DNA from: Vulcanimicrobiota bacterium
GTDB taxonomy: Bacteria; Vulcanimicrobiota; JAJTBE01
DNA: 34,125 nt
NCBI GenBank assembly: GCA_021107945.1
Contig: JAIORV010000029.1
Location: 1-34,125, forward strand
Direction: 5' to 3'
Under the pieces are notes generated by a model, which was not told the DNA's origin, made no database searches, and saw only the letters and a program-made list of their open reading frames with translations. Both the position numbers and the translations under genes were made by a program. Position 1 is the stretch's first letter, and every line of letters begins with the position of its first letter. This document shows positions 11,724 to 34,125 of this stretch, in pieces.

Positions 11724-12524
11724 TCATTTTTTCCTGAACATTCCTCTCTGTATGGCTATGCTGTACAAAATCGTTTTTATCATAAACGGAGTAAGCCATG
11801 GGTGTTTCGAGAGCATCCTTGCAATGATTCCCGTAAGAAACGGTGCGGCAAAACTGTTTCCGGTGCAGGTTTCATAACCATGTTTCAACCAGGGAAGTTT
11901 CACATTTACACCCTTTGTGAGAAATTCTACGGGTGGATAGTCGTTAAAGTAAAACTGGTATGGATCCTCAATGTCAACCGCTTTTACTCCTATTATAGAA
12001 GAAAACACAGCGGGAAAGCTCGGCGTCGGGGCATTGTTTTGCGCCGCAACCATGAGGAGCTTTTTGAAATATGCACTGTCAATCAGGCTATGAAGAGGAG
12101 CGAAATACCTGTCTCTCGTGGTCCCAAGGGATAGGTTCGCCAGAGGAATCTTGTTTTCAATGACCCATTTAATTCCTTTCAGAAATACATCCCCACCTCC
12201 GGTGAGAGTGTTTCCCAGGACTTTGACGCTATAAATTTCAGCTTCCGGGGCAAGCATATGTATAGCTCCCGCACATGCTGTGCCATGTCCAAAAGCGTCA
12301 GTATGATCGCCTTCAATATGCTCGATTCCGTTTTTTGTTTTCCTGATATCGACGCCTCCCGCGATGGAACTTTCAAGAGCGGGATGAGTTCTGTCAATAC
12401 CGCTGTCTATCACTGCAACCTTTATTCCTGCGCCCGTTGAATCTCCCCAGGCCCATTGAGGCGTTATGTGCTCAAACGGGGTTCCCGAGAGATCGGGAAA
12501 TTTGTCTTGTCTTGTAATTTTCAT
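11724..12524 (-). CDS. Small leaderless subtilisin-like serine protease (S8)
   Basis: This is a 266-residue subtilase with a complete catalytic set: Asp40 in VAVIDSGID, His80 in FGHGTACAG, oxyanion Asn163 in AAQNNAP, and Ser224 in TGNSFAAPFL. It has no signal peptide and no propeptide, so it is probably cytoplasmic or exported by an unusual route. The length is close to the bare catalytic domain. Small leaderless subtilases include intracellular processing proteases and some RiPP-processing enzymes. I see no precursor peptide gene nearby, so the substrate is unknown. A GGAG ribosome binding site lies about six bases before the ATG. The gene stands alone on the minus strand and is divergent from the GAF gene. 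Confidence 0.85.
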   Translation of the reverse strand: MKITRQDKFPDLSGTPFEHITPQWAWGDSTGAGIKVAVIDSGIDRTHPALESSIAGGVDIRKTKNGIEHIEGDHTDAFGHGTACAGAIHMLAPEAEIYSVKVLGNTLTGGGDVFLKGIKWVIENKIPLANLSLGTTRDRYFAPLHSLIDSAYFKKLLMVAAQNNAPTPSFPAVFSSIIGVKAVDIEDPYQFYFNDYPPVEFLTKGVNVKLPWLKHGYETCTGNSFAAPFLTGIIARMLSKHPWLTPFMIKTILYSIAIQRGMFRKK

Positions 12525-15203: not shown

Positions 15204-15235
15204 AAGCTCCGCGTCCTCTGCGGTGAATAGTTAAC
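15204..15235 (-). repeat. Partial element B, copy 3
   Basis: On the minus strand this reads AACTATTCACCGCAGAGGAC followed by GCGGAGCT. This is nearly identical to the left end of element B copy 1. It begins within the stop codon of the membrane subtilase, and only the left end is preserved. Confidence 0.65.
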
Positions 15236-17048
15236 TTTTTTCCTTTTTCCCATTCAATTTTATCAGAGCGTATCCAAGAATCATCGCAAGGACAAAATTC
15301 AGAATCAGCCAACCCTTGTCCAGTACAAATGTGCCGGGAATCCAGTGAACATCGGCCGATCTTGTTATGGCAAAAAGGATTTGCGCGGCGAATCCCAGTG
15401 AGAGTCCTGCGGCGAGTTTTTGCCAGCGAGTCTTATAGAGAATTACACCGATAATAAATGGAATTAATACACTATAAAATAGCGGGTTAATATGTGCACC
15501 GGGTCCGAATATGACACAATCCCATTCGGGGATTCCCCTTGTTAAAAGATTTACCCCCGGAAAACTGGCCGCTTTTGTATAGTAAAGGAAGAACAAACCG
15601 GTCGAACCCATCAGCCATCCTATGAGAAGCAGGGGTGAAAAAGCATATTTCCTGAAGTCCTTCATACCTATGATAACGATTATGATGATAAGAACCACAA
15701 TTGCGATGATCAATTTTATCCATCCCAGGTCAATTGTGGACTTATTTACCGCCGCTCCGGCGTCAAGGATTCCTGCGCCATATCCTTCCGGCAGGTTTAT
15801 CCCTTTCTTGCGGGCGGATTTTTTCAGAATGGAAATTATTTCCTTGTTGCCCGTAACACCGGTTGAAGCAACAAGTGCGGCGGCACCGGCAACATGGGGA
15901 CATGCCATAGAAGTGCCCTGGAAAAGGTAGTATCCTTCCTTCTCGGGATCTTTTATTTTTATTGTATTCTGGAGCACACCGTCAGGCATGCCGTCTTTAT
16001 TCTGGTCAACTCGCAGATCGCCTCCGGGGGCGGCTATGTCAATATCTTTGCCCCTGTTCGAGTATGGAGCCAATTTATCGTCAAACCGGGTGGCAGAAAC
16101 GGCAAGGCAAGAGGAATATGCCGCTGGATAACCGATTTTTCGAGACCTGCTGTTGCCGGCGGCGCATACTATTACAACACCTTTCTTGTATGCATAATCA
16201 CAGGCCGATTTTAACACGGAGCTGGGAAACGGACCGCCAAGACTCATGTTGATAACCTTGGCGCCATGATCTGCCGCATAACGAACCGCATCCGCAATAT
16301 CGGAAACTTTGCCATAACCGTTGGCCGAAAGAACTTTTAAGGGCATTATTCTTGACTTGTAGGCGATTCCTGCGACTCCCTTCCTGTTGTTCGTGGTCTG
16401 GGCTATTGTACCGGCGACATGAGTGCCGTGGGCATGATCGTCATTCGGATGATTGTTTTTATCGACAAAGTTATATCCCCTAACGAAATTGGTTTTTTCA
16501 AGATCCTCAACCCTGTGAAACTTTCCGTAGTCTTCATATGCAACACCTGTATCTATTACCGCTACGATCACACCTTCACCCCTGGTGCGATCCCAGGCTT
16601 TTCGAACATTGATTTTTTCCAGGTGCCATTGGTATTTATAAAGGGGATCATTTGGCTTCGAAGTAAGGATGTGATAATAATAGTTAGGCTCGGCATATTC
16701 AACACTGTTGTCTCTTTTTAGCTTTTTCAGGATCCCCGACATTCTGTATTCACCCACCAGGGCCGTCATTATTCGCTCATCCCGGGAGAAAATACTATTG
16801 AATTTCAGATCGATTGAAAAGTCCCTCTCGAGCTTTTCTATGTGCGACATCGTAGTGTTATCCTTGAAGTCAACGATAATCTCTTCCGGCGCATAAAAGG
16901 ATTGTCCACCCTGATAAATATCAACTCCGGTGATTTTTGGTATGTTCTCATCAGCCCGGGCGAATGAGTCTGAATTGATATCCGGGGAAAGACACAAAAA
17001 GAACAGACAAATAGATAACAGTATTGATATAAAAATAAATTTTTTCAT
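15231..17048 (-). CDS. Secreted subtilase with polytopic membrane C-terminus
   Basis: This 605-residue S8 protease has a signal peptide (about 1-30) and an I9-like propeptide (about 50-125: EEIIVDFKD to VEYAEPNYYY). The catalytic domain (about 135-435) has Asp166 in VIDTGVA, His207 in HGTHVAGT, Asn299 in AAGNS and Ser380 in GTSMACPHVAG. Five hydrophobic segments follow, at about 444-462, 471-490, 522-538, 545-562 and 579-597. The protease domain should lie outside the membrane, tethered to this membrane module, whereas most bacterial subtilases end with soluble or cell-wall domains. The ATG at 17048 is chosen over a TTG 15 bases upstream because AGGGGG lies at correct spacing before it. The gene is divergent from the LolA-like gene across a spacer with paired repeats. 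Confidence 0.9.
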   Translation of the reverse strand: MKKFIFISILLSICLFFLCLSPDINSDSFARADENIPKITGVDIYQGGQSFYAPEEIIVDFKDNTTMSHIEKLERDFSIDLKFNSIFSRDERIMTALVGEYRMSGILKKLKRDNSVEYAEPNYYYHILTSKPNDPLYKYQWHLEKINVRKAWDRTRGEGVIVAVIDTGVAYEDYGKFHRVEDLEKTNFVRGYNFVDKNNHPNDDHAHGTHVAGTIAQTTNNRKGVAGIAYKSRIMPLKVLSANGYGKVSDIADAVRYAADHGAKVINMSLGGPFPSSVLKSACDYAYKKGVVIVCAAGNSRSRKIGYPAAYSSCLAVSATRFDDKLAPYSNRGKDIDIAAPGGDLRVDQNKDGMPDGVLQNTIKIKDPEKEGYYLFQGTSMACPHVAGAAALVASTGVTGNKEIISILKKSARKKGINLPEGYGAGILDAGAAVNKSTIDLGWIKLIIAIVVLIIIIVIIGMKDFRKYAFSPLLLIGWLMGSTGLFFLYYTKAASFPGVNLLTRGIPEWDCVIFGPGAHINPLFYSVLIPFIIGVILYKTRWQKLAAGLSLGFAAQILFAITRSADVHWIPGTFVLDKGWLILNFVLAMILGYALIKLNGKKEKS

Positions 17049-17120
17049 GACGACCCCCTGCAAATTTTTCTTTGATTATTAATTTATTAAAGTATCACCT
17101 TTCATTATATATTATATTAG

Positions 17121-27091: not shown

Positions 27092-28705
27092 ATGGATGCA
27101 GATTCAAATGAAAGAAAAAGTCAATTCAAGGATGTTCCTAAAGTAGATCTTCTCACCATGGATATAAACAGGGAAGTCGCGAAAATTCTCCCGGAAGAGA
27201 TTTGCAGGAAGATTGAAGGAATATGTATAGGTAAGCCCGATGGCAAGACTCTTGTAATAGCTGTGAAGGATCCTTATCACATTTATATTTATGATGAAAT
27301 TCAATATGTTACAGGAAATAAGTATAAGGTTCTTCTCCTACAGGGGGAGCCCAAGCTTGTGGATTTAGCTATAGAGTTTATTTATAGAGTGCCTGTGCAG
27401 GCACAGGGTTCTCCCTGGTCCGAATGGCTTGAGAAGAAGAAGTATGAAGGCGAGAAGTTAGATGTTACATCTACCGGAGCTGATAAGGAGACTGTGATTA
27501 CCGATATCACCGGCACGATTATCGAAAAAGCTAACAAGATAATAAGTGAAGCTATATCCGTGGGCGCAAGTGATATTCACCTTGAGACATTCGAGGATCA
27601 ACTCACTGTCAGATATAGAATTGACGGCGTGCTTCATATAATGGATGTCATCTCTGATCTCGCCGAGGCAAGGGCTCTTATTCATCGAGTAAAAATCATG
27701 GGAAATATGGATATAGCCCAGGACAGAATAACACAGGGAGGTCGAATAAGTGTAAAAGTCGCCGATCAGGAGTTTGACTTGAGAGTAAGTATTGTTCCTG
27801 TTCCCGACGGAGAGAGCATTGTACTTCGCCTCCTCAACAAAGGTGCTTTTAATTTGAGTCTGGAAACGCTGGGTTTCAATGAAGAGCAACTTGAAACATA
27901 TAAGAAAATGGTTTCCATGCCTTATGGGATTATTCTTGTATCAGGTCCTACAGGGTCGGGAAAATCTACCACGCTTTATGCAAGCCTGAAGGAGATAAGC
28001 AGACCGGACAGGAAGCTCATCACGGTGGAAGATCCGATTGAATATCAGATGTCCGGAGTCGTACAAGTACAGGTAAACCTTGCTCCCCGGGAGGAGGAAA
28101 AGAAAGTAACATTTGGCAAGGCTTTGAGAGAATTTCTACGCCAGGATCCCGATGTTATTCTTATAGGAGAGATCAGAGATAATGAGACCGCCGAGATTGC
28201 CGTAAAGGCGGCGCAGACAGGTCACCTGGTGTTGTCAACGATTCATACCAATGATGCGGTGGGTATTATAAACAGGTTGAAGGATATGGCTGTTGTTCCT
28301 TACCTCATCTCATCAACTCTCATCGGCGCAATCGCACAGAGACTGGTAAGACGGCTATGTATTCATTGCAGGGAAAAAACAACGGTTCCCGATTATCTCA
28401 GACAATATTTAACCGCGGAACAAATAAAAGATGCCGAGGCCTACAAGGCAGTGGGATGTCCCCGGTGCAGAAGAACAGGCTACAAGGGAAGAGTCGGCTT
28501 GTTCGAGATTCTTATAATCAGCGATGAGATAAGGGATTTAATAGAACGGAATTCCACAACCGGTGAAATATACAGGCTTTCACGGAAACAGGGAATGAAG
28601 ACCCTCCTGGAAGACGGAGTCCTGAAGTTCCTGAAAGGATTTACTTCCATGGAAGAGGTTAACAGAGTTTGTATGAGAGATATTGCATCACATGAAAAAG
28701 AATAG
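27092..28705 (+). CDS. Type II secretion/type IV pilus assembly ATPase (GspE/PilB)
   Basis: This 537-residue hexameric ATPase powers pseudopilus or pilus assembly. An N-terminal domain (to about 140) precedes the ATPase core. Walker A is GPTGSGKST at 285-293, the Asp box is around LITVEDPIEYQ, Walker B is DVILIGEIRD at about 354-363, and the His box is LSTIHTNDA. The zinc-binding tetracysteine is also present: CIHC and CPRC, followed by GYKGRVGLFEIL, as in GspE/PilB rather than PilT. A GGAG ribosome binding site lies ahead of the ATG. Its 3' end overlaps the next gene by 14 bp, so the two are co-translated. Confidence 0.94.
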   Translation: MDADSNERKSQFKDVPKVDLLTMDINREVAKILPEEICRKIEGICIGKPDGKTLVIAVKDPYHIYIYDEIQYVTGNKYKVLLLQGEPKLVDLAIEFIYRVPVQAQGSPWSEWLEKKKYEGEKLDVTSTGADKETVITDITGTIIEKANKIISEAISVGASDIHLETFEDQLTVRYRIDGVLHIMDVISDLAEARALIHRVKIMGNMDIAQDRITQGGRISVKVADQEFDLRVSIVPVPDGESIVLRLLNKGAFNLSLETLGFNEEQLETYKKMVSMPYGIILVSGPTGSGKSTTLYASLKEISRPDRKLITVEDPIEYQMSGVVQVQVNLAPREEEKKVTFGKALREFLRQDPDVILIGEIRDNETAEIAVKAAQTGHLVLSTIHTNDAVGIINRLKDMAVVPYLISSTLIGAIAQRLVRRLCIHCREKTTVPDYLRQYLTAEQIKDAEAYKAVGCPRCRRTGYKGRVGLFEILIISDEIRDLIERNSTTGEIYRLSRKQGMKTLLEDGVLKFLKGFTSMEEVNRVCMRDIASHEKE

Positions 28706-31580
28706 ACTTCAAACACAGATTCAATATATGAGAAGACAGAAGGGCATGCTTATTATCATAGCCCTTGCCATATTGTTTATTCTGTTAATCCTGGCAACGG
28801 CGCTTATTTTTCAGGGTGGTACAGCTCTTCAGTATTCTCTCAGATTCAGGCGAATGAACCTTGCGGAGCGTACAATCCAAATTACAAGGGTAAGGTTTGA
28901 GGAAACATTCCAGTCGAAATCCCCCGGAGAAAGACACAAAGATAAGGGTAAAGATAAGGGAATCCCTCTTTTACCTACCAGCGGAAAATTCGTGGTATAT
29001 CCTGAGATTGGCGAATCAGGTAAAAAATATAACTTCGAAATGTCCGGTACGTTTGAGAAAGGACACTCCATTTACAGACCCGTGCCTGAAGAGCCCGGAT
29101 ATAAGAAGAGCGAAGGATTTCAGCCTGATGAGATTCCGCTTGTAGGGTACCAGGATGCATGCCTTGAAAAGGGATTCAGGGACACTCCGGTATCTCCCTG
29201 GCATTCCCTTGTTGTACTTTCCGCCCGCAATGGCAAAAGATACCTCACAATGTACAGCGGCGCGTTTCCATACGGGATATATGCTCCACGGGGGAAGGTT
29301 TTTCTGGACAGCGCAAGATCCTTCTCAAATCCTACCATGGCAAAAATGATAAAGCATGCATTTGACGAGAGCCTCAATTATTCGGGTATTCCCATCTCCA
29401 TCCGGGCAAAAAAAGGGATAGAGATAAAAGATTTTCCCCATGGAAGAGCATATAACTCGGAAGAAGGAAAAATCAGTATTCAGGGTGGAGGTATAGGATT
29501 CTCGGGTATAAAATTCAAGGAGGATTATTCTCTTGAGGTAAGCGCACAGATTGAAAATGCCATAAAGGAGCTTTCCGATGTTACATTGGATAAAACAAGC
29601 TATCTTATAGGCACTCCCCTGAATCTCGTAAGTATATTCGAAGGCAAGTTCGATTTTGGCCAGATATTCAGCCTCGAACAGGCAAGGGAGATTCCATTTC
29701 CGATTCTCCCCACATGGCAAAACCTGGGGGCCATACAAAACTTCATGTTCCATGTACCCAAACCACCGGATCTTGCTCCGGATTACAGTCACGACGAGGA
29801 AACGCGAAAACAACTCGCAAAGTTAAAAAGATTGCAGAAAAAATGGGAAGGTGTTGACCCGGGTAAACTCAAGGAGAAGAAAAAAGCGGAATATGACAAG
29901 GATATGAAGCAGATACAGAAAATAGTCGATGAGTTGAAGCGCAAGGGCAAAGAAGGTGAACCGGGGCAGGCTCCCAAAACAAGGAAAGATGAGAAAAGTT
30001 TTAGCAATATAGGATATAACTATATTAATATGTTAAAGGGGGTTATAGATAAAATCGGAATTCTCTTTTCCAAAGGGCCAAAGGAGTTCATGAGAAATCT
30101 TCTGGACAGGGTGAGAGTTGTACATTATCGGGATGGACCCCCGGATATAGAGTTTATACACAAGGGTGGCGACACGACGGGATTTAAATGGGTGAGCAAC
30201 TGGTCGGTTCCCCGGGGAAGGACTGTCAAATTAAAGCAAAATGTAACAATCCTGGGGGATTTATGGATACAGGACGGAGCGGTTTTCCATGTAGTGGGCA
30301 ATCTTACAGTAAAATCACCGCCCGGAGAAAGTAAAAATCCACTTGCGCCGTGCGGCAGGGTTCACCTGGGAAAGGGCTCCGTGTTAATCGTGGATGGCAA
30401 TTTTCAATGTGAGGGAAAAAAATTCCTCGGCTCGGTAAGCGTTGACTCTCCCCTTGGAAAGGTGAATTACATCACATCCGCCATCCTTTGCACGGGGAAT
30501 GTAACTATTCCGCATGGTACAGTTCCAGGCATCAAGTTTAACACACTTGCAGGTGAGCTTGTGGGGGGAGAGTTGGAAACATTCCTGGACACGGTACTTG
30601 ATGTTGCGCCACATATCGCCAAGGTGTTGGGACCGTTCCACAGAAGGAAATGCTACTTTGCATCTTATGCCGATACAATTACCGTTATTATTACGCCTGT
30701 GGGACCCATACCGTTTCCGAGCTTTCTTCCAAAGAAAAATTATACGATTCCCATATTCAAAATCTTTACAATGGCTTATACAATTAACCTGAATATGATG
30801 CTGGGTGAGAATCTGTTTCTTGATACCGACTGGTGGATTCTGGGTAAGGGCGTAGTGCCGATCCTGCCGAAAATACCCGGTATTACTCTTGTTAAAGATG
30901 CTTTTTCAGAAACCACATTTGAGGGAATTGGAAAAGAGATATTAAACGATATTGGAGATGTAGTTATCAATTGTTTTCTTAAAGAGATCGGCCCACAGAT
31001 AATTATTTATGCAGTGGGTACCATCCTGAGCGCGGTTATTCAATCGGTAGCAGGAATCTCTATTGATCTTGCCGGGATATTTTCAAAATTTGCAGGATCT
31101 GAATCGGGCTTGAAGGGTCTTAAAAACAAAATAAGACTCGCAGCAAATAAAACCCTGAAAAAAATATGCAGCGATGTGTATGCAATTCTGAAAGAACATA
31201 TGAAAAAATCTGTCAAGATAAGATATTATGAGACTCCGGGAGTTCTTGTTTATTCCGGTAAAAAGTTGAAAATAGGAGAGAAGGAGAAAAAGGGAGAATT
31301 CAGCAAATGTATCCTGGCATCGGGCATGTTTGTATCACAACAGGATATGGAGATATATGCGAATCAAACCGTGGGGTGTCTTATCAGTGTCAACGGTAAT
31401 ATTACCGCCAGAGATTTCTATTATTATCCATACTTCACCAGAGCTTCCCTCACCATACCCAAAAAATTCGACACGGCAATCGAGAACCTGGTTCATTTTA
31501 AAAATCCCAAAAGTGAAAAGAAACCTCTGGGCATTGGATTGGTAAAATATCATATAATCGGTGAGGGATGGGAGAAATGA
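28692..31580 (+). CDS. Giant PilX/GspK-like minor pilin with beta-helix segments
   Basis: This is a 962-residue protein. The N-terminus has the build of the PilX/GspK class: a basic start, then QKGMLIIIALAILFILLILA at about 16-35, then an amphipathic helix with MNLAERTIQITRVRFEET. Most relatives are 150-350 residues; this one is three to six times longer. A Lys/Glu-rich coiled-coil stretch lies at about 362-433. At about 510-600 a strand-repeat region (NVTILGDLWIQDG, HVVGNLTVKSPPG, SVLIVDGNFQCEG) resembles bactofilin or parallel beta-helix sequence. A similar short region recurs near 850-915 (LISVNGNITARDF). A second hydrophobic segment lies near 770-800. The ATG at 28692 lies inside the end of the ATPase gene. 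It could be a pilus-tip adhesin or scaffold; this is inference. Confidence 0.65.
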   Translation: MKKNRLQTQIQYMRRQKGMLIIIALAILFILLILATALIFQGGTALQYSLRFRRMNLAERTIQITRVRFEETFQSKSPGERHKDKGKDKGIPLLPTSGKFVVYPEIGESGKKYNFEMSGTFEKGHSIYRPVPEEPGYKKSEGFQPDEIPLVGYQDACLEKGFRDTPVSPWHSLVVLSARNGKRYLTMYSGAFPYGIYAPRGKVFLDSARSFSNPTMAKMIKHAFDESLNYSGIPISIRAKKGIEIKDFPHGRAYNSEEGKISIQGGGIGFSGIKFKEDYSLEVSAQIENAIKELSDVTLDKTSYLIGTPLNLVSIFEGKFDFGQIFSLEQAREIPFPILPTWQNLGAIQNFMFHVPKPPDLAPDYSHDEETRKQLAKLKRLQKKWEGVDPGKLKEKKKAEYDKDMKQIQKIVDELKRKGKEGEPGQAPKTRKDEKSFSNIGYNYINMLKGVIDKIGILFSKGPKEFMRNLLDRVRVVHYRDGPPDIEFIHKGGDTTGFKWVSNWSVPRGRTVKLKQNVTILGDLWIQDGAVFHVVGNLTVKSPPGESKNPLAPCGRVHLGKGSVLIVDGNFQCEGKKFLGSVSVDSPLGKVNYITSAILCTGNVTIPHGTVPGIKFNTLAGELVGGELETFLDTVLDVAPHIAKVLGPFHRRKCYFASYADTITVIITPVGPIPFPSFLPKKNYTIPIFKIFTMAYTINLNMMLGENLFLDTDWWILGKGVVPILPKIPGITLVKDAFSETTFEGIGKEILNDIGDVVINCFLKEIGPQIIIYAVGTILSAVIQSVAGISIDLAGIFSKFAGSESGLKGLKNKIRLAANKTLKKICSDVYAILKEHMKKSVKIRYYETPGVLVYSGKKLKIGEKEKKGEFSKCILASGMFVSQQDMEIYANQTVGCLISVNGNITARDFYYYPYFTRASLTIPKKFDTAIENLVHFKNPKSEKKPLGIGLVKYHIIGEGWEK

Positions 31581-31582
31581 TA

Positions 31583-31731
31583 TTGGAAAAAGGAAGATGG
31601 AAGATGAAAAATGGATAATGGATGTTGGATAATGGATGTTGGATTATGGAGGGCGACTCCCGTTTCCCGGCTCTCATTTCCCACCTCCCGTATGTAGGAG
31701 GGGCGTCTCGCCCCGATAATAGTATTGCCAA
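31583..31731 (+). repeat. Interspersed repeat element C, copy 2
   Basis: This shows GGATAATGGATGTTGG units (two tandem, one degenerate), CCCGTTTCCC, TCATTTCCCACC, GTATGTAGGAGGGGCG and a hairpin GGGGCG-TCT-CGCCCC followed by GATAA. Order and spacing match copy 1 at 14714. It begins two bases after the stop of the giant pilin gene and ends just before the ribosome binding site of the next prepilin, inside an operon. Confidence 0.7.
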
Positions 31732-31747
31732 GAATGGAGATCGGAAA

Positions 31748-32185
31748 TTGGAAAATAAAAATAAAGGATTCACTATAATTGAGGTCATCATTGCAATATT
31801 TATTATTTCATGCGGACTTATGGCCCTTTTCTCGACTTTTTCTCTTTCCATCAGGCACGCCACTCAGAGCAGGAACAAGGTCTGTGTTGATGTCATCGCC
31901 GACAGCATGCTGGAAGGAGTAAGAGCACATCGTTATGGTGAGCCAAAACCTCCGTCATGGGAAAAGCCCAGGATGGTGCTGACTGTGATACAGGGAAAAA
32001 TCTCGCAGACAACTTTTCATATAAAGGTCAAATGCAAAAATCAGAGCTTTATTGATGAAAAAATTAATAAAGATTATGATTATGTAACCATAGAGATAAC
32101 ATGGAGCGAAGGTACCGGGGTAGGGAGTCGAGGAATAAAAAGAATGCATTCTGAAACAGTACCCGTAAGGAGAGGACTTGATTAA
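31748..32185 (+). CDS. Type IV prepilin-like protein (PilV/GspI type)
   Basis: This is a prepilin of 145 residues. Starting at the TTG at 31748, the leader is MENKNKG, followed by the mature N-terminus FTIIEVIIAIFIISCGLMAL. That gives the canonical Gly/Phe prepilin peptidase site, Glu at +5 and the hydrophobic helix. A GGAG ribosome binding site lies eight bases before this TTG. The frame is open to 31622, but that part is repeat element C and should not be translated. The C-terminal part is strand-rich with no recognised domain. The length and N-terminal pattern fit minor pseudopilin GspI/PilV. It overlaps the next gene by one base. Confidence 0.85.
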   Translation: MENKNKGFTIIEVIIAIFIISCGLMALFSTFSLSIRHATQSRNKVCVDVIADSMLEGVRAHRYGEPKPPSWEKPRMVLTVIQGKISQTTFHIKVKCKNQSFIDEKINKDYDYVTIEITWSEGTGVGSRGIKRMHSETVPVRRGLD

Positions 32186-33006: not shown

Positions 33007-33175
33007 TATTAAAAGATGTGAGAATAAATTCAAGGCTGCATTAAAAGGGGATTTTGATTTTTCATACAGAATACTGCCCTGAATCCAAAAGAATGCCGGA
33101 TGTTTACTGAGAGTTTTAGTGCTGAGATTACAAGTCGATGCATTCAATTTCTATCTTCTGAAAAAGGTGAGATAC

Positions 33176-34125
33176 ATGAAAATATCTGATAAAAAAAGAG
33201 AATCAGTTGTCAATAAGCATGGAGTCGGGATACAAACAATAAAAGGCTGTTTTATAGGAGAATTTGAACCTCAGAGATTTGAAGATTTTCTAATCGCTCT
33301 GTCTCTTACAAGCGATCATGGAGAGACTTCCACAAGGTTGAGGCGGATTATGGAATATTCGGGGGACCTGTTTGATGTTGCATCAGCGATAGAAATTTTA
33401 AGGTTCCTCGTATTAAATGGGCTCGTTATTGTTAATGCGCCTGATGGCGGTTTAGATTCCATGACCGACTCGGCGGCCGAAGGATTGGAAATTGCAAATA
33501 TCGACATTACTCCCAGGCAGGATATAGTCAGCTTTGTGGAGATTGTTCCCTGGAGCAAAGAGCATTCAATTGAATTGATGAAGAAAATCCTGATGTTTAC
33601 ACCGGTTTACAGGGAAATAAAATTAATAATTGACAGGCCGATAAGCGAAAAAGACCTGGAGCGCAAGCTTCACGCCGCATACGGCGATGCAATTTCCGCG
33701 CCATGCCCCACAATAGACATGTTCAAGAACTATGGATTGCTTGAATGTTACAGACCGGGCTATTTTGAAGGGGATATGATGTTATATTTCAGGATGAAGA
33801 AAGTAGATGAAATCGGAAGTGTCAGCGGAACGGAGCATTGGATCCCTAAAGTCCCTGAAAAAAGGATTGCACAAGAAGATCCCTGCTCCAATATGGTTGA
33901 CGTAGTCAGGGGCAGTCCAGGCAGGTCGCCGAAGGTCTCATTGAACATAAACATAAATATAAACCTGCCGTTCCCCGCCGAGGAAATCGGGAATGTGGAA
34001 TTGGAGCGATTGAGAAACACCATAGCAAAAATAAAAACAGAAATCGAAAAGACAGGTTTATATTCAGAATCTATAGTTTATCGCTTTAAAGGTATAATAA
34101 ACTCCATATTATTCAGGAAGTCGGG
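33176..34125 (+). CDS. Unrecognised protein, incomplete at the window edge
   Basis: An ATG at 33176, with AAGGTGA five bases upstream, opens a frame that stays open for 316 codons to the last base of the window, so the C-terminus is missing. The protein starts MKISDKKRESVVNKHGVGI and is soluble-looking, with no signal peptide. Residues about 25-90 could be a winged-helix (RRIMEYSGDL, EILRFLVLNGLVIV), and a second similar block follows at about 135-190 (MFKNYGLLECYRPG). Near residue 260 comes an alternating strand, VSLNINININLPF, then a helix with Glu/Lys. The pairing of a winged-helix with a strand of alternating Asn/Ile recalls DUF5343-type proteins, but I do not claim the match. It lies 169 bp after the prepilin gene on the same strand; that gap shows no feature. 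Confidence 0.6.
   Translation, partial: MKISDKKRESVVNKHGVGIQTIKGCFIGEFEPQRFEDFLIALSLTSDHGETSTRLRRIMEYSGDLFDVASAIEILRFLVLNGLVIVNAPDGGLDSMTDSAAEGLEIANIDITPRQDIVSFVEIVPWSKEHSIELMKKILMFTPVYREIKLIIDRPISEKDLERKLHAAYGDAISAPCPTIDMFKNYGLLECYRPGYFEGDMMLYFRMKKVDEIGSVSGTEHWIPKVPEKRIAQEDPCSNMVDVVRGSPGRSPKVSLNINININLPFPAEEIGNVELERLRNTIAKIKTEIEKTGLYSESIVYRFKGIINSILFRKS

Follow-up and report, generated by a model that had tools for sequence, protein, structure and literature searches.

In GspK, a pilin beta-sheet carries an inserted calcium-binding alpha-domain. The tip of the type II pseudopilus is a complex of GspK, GspI and GspJ (PMC6211770). ComZ from Thermus thermophilus, a large GspK-like prepilin-like protein without Glu5, has likewise been argued to be a tip pilin; it bears a beta-solenoid that is closest to an ice-binding protein and that precedes the last pilin strand (PMC6561018). 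A giant prepilin accompanied by two small ones is also already known, in two forms. HpsA-B-C of cyanobacteria (NF038301, NF038303, NF038304) combine a giant of model length 1503 with GspI- and GspJ-like pseudopilins, and hpsA-D may cooperate with a pilus system in polysaccharide export (PMC6495340). Verru_Chthon A, B and C (TIGR02600, TIGR02598, TIGR02599) combine a giant A of 1296 positions with the prepilins B and C.

Here we examined a 34,125-nt stretch of DNA from a Vulcanimicrobiota bacterium (contig JAIORV010000029.1 of assembly GCA_021107945.1; hereafter, the window), in which a compact cassette encodes GspF- and GspE-like proteins, a 962-residue protein (K) and two small prepilins (I and J). 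An earlier note on this DNA had proposed that K is a very large tip-like or scaffold protein, exported by a dedicated GspE/F machine that would be a novel variant of such systems.

Comparison with described systems

The cassette resembles the GspK/GspI/GspJ tip complex in its K-I-J order, GspK-type N-terminus and GspE/F-type motor (PMC6211770), but has no C, G, H, L, M or D gene. Moreover, none of 15 K members matched a GspK profile of Pfam or NCBIfam up to E 0.1, and K matched neither PilX nor the Pfam bactofilin profile up to the same value, so that the membership of these families entertained in the earlier note was not borne out by profile. Like ComZ, K is a large GspK-like protein without Glu5 that bears a beta-solenoid, and the position of the ComZ solenoid would agree with the predicted arrangement of elements in K (PMC6561018). 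K differs from ComZ in its 962 residues, its two large insertions, its unique signature and its lack of a PDB sequence match (ComZ was not among the PDB matches up to E 1); the pilin fold in K is putative.

The Hps and Verru_Chthon triads share with the K cassette a giant encoded with I- and J-like partners. Unlike the former, the K cassette has its own E and F genes, whilst hps genes adjoin glycosyltransferases; the HpsA model matched nothing in the window genome or in a scan of the K members. TIGR02600 was also unmatched in the K members and had no hit in the window genome, and its hits elsewhere in the phylum covered approximately the first 55-140 positions, below the cut-off. The best NCBIfam match of a J paralogue of the window genome (on contig C10) was Verru_Chthon C (E 3.5e-6), with HpsC also found (E 9.6e-5), both being weak; I matched Verru_Chthon B at E 0.078. 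The novelty claimed earlier holds in that K has no match to the profiles or sequences of these systems, but a giant prepilin beside two small ones has precedents in HpsA and Verru_Chthon A, as has a solenoid tip pilin in ComZ.

More broadly, Pfam, NCBIfam and PDB sequence searches with K matched no family beyond coiled-coil noise, and only weak PDB hits were obtained with profiles of K, J, I and the solenoid (coiled-coil chains, pilin N-termini, autotransporter beta-helices). K has over twice the length of the ordinary prepilins (396 and 416 aa) of the window genome's other cassettes, and a profile comparison of K with these two was negative. DUF7305 PilX-like proteins (416 aa in the window genome, 434 aa in the genome G067) are ordinary-sized relatives in position and kind; they differ from K and its compact homologues (below), in which DUF7305 was undetected.

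Table 1. Elements of the K cassette in the window; a slash marks the predicted prepilin cleavage site
Feature	Position	Strand	Basis or remark
GspF/PilC-like inner-membrane platform protein, 415 aa	25832..27079	+	Pfam T2SSF E 2e-52; NCBIfam GspF E 5.5e-80, below equivalog cut-off
GspE/PilB-like assembly ATPase, 537 aa, MshEN + T2SSE; without the relatives' kinase-like N-terminal domain	27092..28705	+	Pfam/NCBIfam, tree
Giant prepilin in GspK/PilX position (K), 962 aa	28692..31580	+	Alternative start ATG 28728
K prepilin leader and N-terminal hydrophobic helix (RRQKG/MLIIIALAILFILLILATALI), without Glu5	28728..28808	+	Sequence
Beta-solenoid part 1, residues 191-275, common to compact relatives	29262..29516	+	AlphaFold2 model, alignment with compacts
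Insertion 1, residues ~276-496, largely helical with coiled coil; mostly missing in compacts	29517..30179	+	Model, alignment
Beta-solenoid part 2, residues 497-615, with a strand per 6-7 residues; one of the most conserved regions	30180..30536	+	Model, alignment
Insertion 2, residues ~616-847, mostly helical; helical stretch missing in compacts	30537..31232	+	Model, alignment
Family signature LGENLFLDTDWWILGKGVVP (consensus LGENFxTHxDWWIFGEGVVP), within insertion 2	30801..30860	+	Alignment of giants
Beta-solenoid part 3, residues 848-925, common to compact relatives	31233..31466	+	Model, alignment
C-terminal segment, residues 926-962, conserved Trp strand at end	31467..31577	+	Alignment, model
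GspI/PilV-like prepilin (NKNKG/FTIIE)	31622..32185	+	Pfam N_methyl; NCBIfam PilV E 1.7e-9, GspI 1e-5
GspJ/PilW-position prepilin (RKSQG/FTFAE), 273 aa	32185..33006	+	Position, N-methyl motif

The K gene and its neighbours

The K frame was found as the earlier note had described it, with 962 codons between an ATG and a stop, and its first 14 nt overlap the 3' end of the ATPase gene. The alternative start (M13) would give a leader of 6 residues, the commoner length. The features of a GspK-type N-terminus (basic leader, Gly/Ala cleavage site, ~20 apolar residues and no Glu5) are all present in K, with Gly18 preceding ~21 apolar residues; in some K members the -1 residue is Ala in place of Gly. 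The best 19-residue Kyte-Doolittle mean of this helix is 2.5-3.35 among the K members, and the helix also appears in the structure model, in line with the GspK/PilX-like N-terminus originally noticed. By the same measure, a second hydrophobic stretch does exist in the window protein (1.92) but is not a general feature: the other 14 members reach only 1.06-1.64, and we therefore rejected a conserved second transmembrane segment, the stretch being peculiar to the window protein.

The neighbours are also those previously described, GspF and GspE upstream and two prepilins downstream that both carry Glu5. The true start of the GspI/PilV-like gene is probably downstream of its annotated ATG, and the last product is a putative GspJ by its position and N-methyl motif.

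K belongs to a conserved family

We found K at 20 loci in 11 of 149 genomes, window genome included, of the phylum Candidatus Eremiobacterota/Vulcanimicrobiota (in NCBI taxonomy the name Eremiobacterota now stands under Vulcanimicrobiota). Three of these loci are in the window genome, for which genome-wide counts rest on searches: the window copy and paralogues on contigs C10 and C28. Fifteen are full-length giants of 915-1054 aa. The 14 others align end to end with the window protein at 25-34% identity, and the invariant residues of the alignment range over positions 1 to 923. This whole-length homology rules out a chance open frame, and the spread over 11 genomes disposes of a fusion unique to this assembly, which the earlier note had named as a way in which its reading could fail. 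The K gene is thus real and part of a conserved family. One giant copy (L047, G012:C334) lies in two frames, reflecting a frameshift or an assembly error.

K is followed directly by I- and J-type prepilins at 18 of the 20 loci; of the other two, one has I but then reaches the end of its contig, and that in G028 has no I or J nearby. A conserved association of similarly large proteins with these partners, as had been anticipated, is therefore seen. All five genes stand side by side as F-E-K-I-J in the window, G048 and G046, and F-E-K-I runs up to a contig end in G012. The predicted recurrence of an F-E-giant-I-J order thus holds in part: the order recurs in three further genomes (in one of them cut after I), but with a K of 581-636 aa, and most genomes of family f11 have K-I-J standing alone, with E and F located elsewhere. 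In the window genome's own paralogues, a TPR protein and a kinase separate E from K (C10), or E and F are divergent (C28). The K and J trees concur on two paralogue clades in f11, the remainder of the J tree being weakly resolved.

A major pilin and a secretin are absent from the cassette, and both must therefore be supplied from elsewhere. The window genome encodes two secretins (one above the GspD cut-off, one best matched by PilQ) and a single prepilin peptidase, together with 16 long GspE/PilB-type matches in addition to shorter PilT-like ones, ~20 GspF-type proteins and ~40 prepilin motifs. Counted by domain, 27 T2SSE and 41 T2SSF matches stand against the two secretins and one peptidase, an expansion of filament motors. 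A separate cluster in the window genome (L114, G000:C1:88000-107500) contains four GspF-like genes, one GspE-like ATPase and two prepilins.

A predicted solenoid with two large insertions

The AlphaFold2 model of full-length K, for which the own-genome paralogues were left out of the input, has a mean pLDDT of 52. Blocks inside the three solenoid parts are mostly at pLDDT 72-95, with weaker stretches within each part; residues 42-187 fall below 50, so the N-terminal helix is predicted whilst the pilin sheet around it has no confident model. Folded alone, residues 485-625 gave a mean pLDDT of 85 and a pTM of 0.80, with strands every 6-7 residues. The strand repeats seen in the earlier note are accordingly predicted to be of beta-solenoid type, although there are three such regions rather than two (~191-275, 497-615 and 848-925), and the coiled-coil linker that it described corresponds to predicted helices at 369-384, 395-420 and 444-470.

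Fold searches with residues 485-625 were led mostly by beta-solenoids (ice-binding proteins first; also CcmM, tapirin, bactofilin and pectate lyase), all of them weak, with E values of at least 0.045 and low TM-scores; the ice-binding proteins are also the class nearest to the ComZ solenoid. The full-length model gave no usable match as a query, and a search of a viral fold library was uninformative for K.

A comparison with smaller homologues locates the extra length. Compact K proteins, 581-636 aa long if counting starts near the cleavage site, occupy the F-E-K-I-J cassettes of G048, G012 and G046. Aligned with the giants, they cover the N-terminal helix, the solenoid entry (FPYGxxAPxG), the central solenoid (VPPGEAIEIPMSMYVAGDLVM..), the C-terminal solenoid and the C-terminus, and lack most of giant residues ~276-440 and the helical stretch ~730-845. 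As judged from this alignment, a compact K is the same N-terminal pilin helix with one putative beta-solenoid, into which the giants add two large insertions. The conserved Trp strand at the C-terminus could be the last strand of the pilin sheet, a possible pairing. In the K tree the giants form one clade against the compacts (support 100/100), which fits a single origin of the giants; the tree is unrooted, and we infer rather than observe the direction of the size change (insertion or loss).

A dedicated ATPase clade with a kinase-like domain

The GspE-type ATPases of the K-bearing genomes form one clade (100/100) on a long stem, apart from six other ATPases of the window genome, and its branching resembles that of K. 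Relatives within the clade are present in 11 of the 11 K-bearing genomes, with at least 53% identity (44% over a longer, kinase-containing match in G026), and the clade is absent from the other 138, where the best match reached 46%. K and this clade are thus co-inherited, and since the two occur in the same 11 genomes, the clade appears to be a dedicated motor for K, as the earlier note had supposed.

Most of these ATPases have a kinase-like domain at their N-terminus (Pfam Pkinase, E 4e-20 to 2e-32): those of C10, C28, G046, G012 (C49), G026, G028 and the f11 genomes (loci L031:7161-9779, L032:4966-7683, L148, L149 and L182-L187), with a GAF domain besides in G028. The ATPases of the window and of G048 have no such domain. 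In G050 the kinase-like domain and the ATPase are in different frames on a contig that contains N, and a second ATPase of the clade in G012 (C301) stops at the edge of its contig. The sequences inspected have another residue in place of the VAIK lysine, in most the DFG Asp is changed to Glu, and the two own-genome copies (C10, C28) also lack the HRD aspartate; because of these replacements, kinase activity is likely to be reduced or absent. This fusion of a kinase-like domain to the motor is more surprising than K itself. We found no such fusion in a 2024 review of PilB control (PMC11656802), within a literature coverage that is not exhaustive. Separately, the two paralogous cassettes of the window genome are flanked by kinases with intact HRD motifs and an N-terminal zinc ribbon (L031:10571-12247 and L032:13804-15429).

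Interpretation

We favour, with a probability of about 0.68, a reading in which K caps a lineage-specific type IV filament, be it a pseudopilus or a pilus, as a GspK/PilX/ComZ-like tip subunit, with I and J as its partners and its own E/F motor. By analogy with GspK and ComZ, the prepilin peptidase would cut the short leader at G18, and the N-terminal helices of K, I and J would bring the three together, as happens in the GspI-J-K tip complex, I and J priming or supporting K. GspF and the dedicated ATPase would then drive the extension of a filament tipped by K. The solenoid head, enlarged by the two insertions, would be shown in the periplasm, or outside the cell via one of the two secretins, and might act there as a receptor or adhesin (our default guess).

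One rival, which we consider unlikely, is a pseudopilus for polysaccharide secretion in which K is an HpsA-like large partner of HpsB/C-type pseudopilins and not an adhesive tip. I does match HpsB weakly (E 7.5e-6), as the C10 J paralogue does HpsC, and HpsA is a giant too, encoded among genes that may serve polysaccharide export (PMC6495340); however, the HpsA model itself is unmatched, and the neighbours annotated, which are a part of the total, include no glycosyltransferase cluster beside the cassettes. It is similarly improbable that K is a structural protein, scaffold or bactofilin-like, that is secreted or anchored at the surface, uses its prepilin leader for export only and forms no filament tip. 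The size, solenoid repeats and coiled coil of K would suit such a role, and the BacA bactofilin is among the weak fold matches (E 0.64, to solenoid part 2). Against this stand the constant pairing with I- and J-type prepilins, the dedicated ATPase clade, the compact relatives holding the same position and the lack of a bactofilin profile match; the exported scaffold of the earlier note found no support beyond size. It is very doubtful that K serves a competence pilus as its DNA receptor, the role proposed for Thermus ComZ: the general architecture (GspK-like prepilin with beta-solenoid) is ComZ-like and the window protein is net positive in every segment, but charge is not conserved, insertion 1 being strongly acidic in several relatives (down to -17) and the solenoids there neutral, segment charges across the K members revealed no conserved basic DNA-binding surface, and no competence gene came to notice beside the cassette.

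If K is a tip subunit, it belongs to a class of protein that determines what type IV filaments grip or push. Within this family a GspK-like tip protein would vary between ~600 and ~960 residues by insertions in its solenoid, with two partner pilins and one motor clade retained, and what the insertions do is open to a direct test because compact and giant forms share a gene order. Filament assembly might be controlled through the kinase-like domain of the cognate ATPase. Restriction to a few Eremiobacterota lineages, together with partner pilins and a motor ATPase of its own, makes the system look new and self-contained; we would put at even odds the fuller proposal of a distinct Eremiobacterota type IV filament system, built from a giant tip pilin whose solenoid has two insertions, I and J subunits of its own, and a dedicated ATPase clade with an ancestral, degenerate kinase-like regulatory domain (sometimes with GAF).

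Other features of the window

Downstream of the cassette, an open frame of at least 316 aa (33119-34125) runs to the contig end and has no Pfam or NCBIfam match. An IS1595-type transposase is encoded at the opposite end (1349-2266). Two subtilase-type proteases are also present (15231-17063 and 11724-12524), the larger with C-terminal membrane segments (DUF5942).
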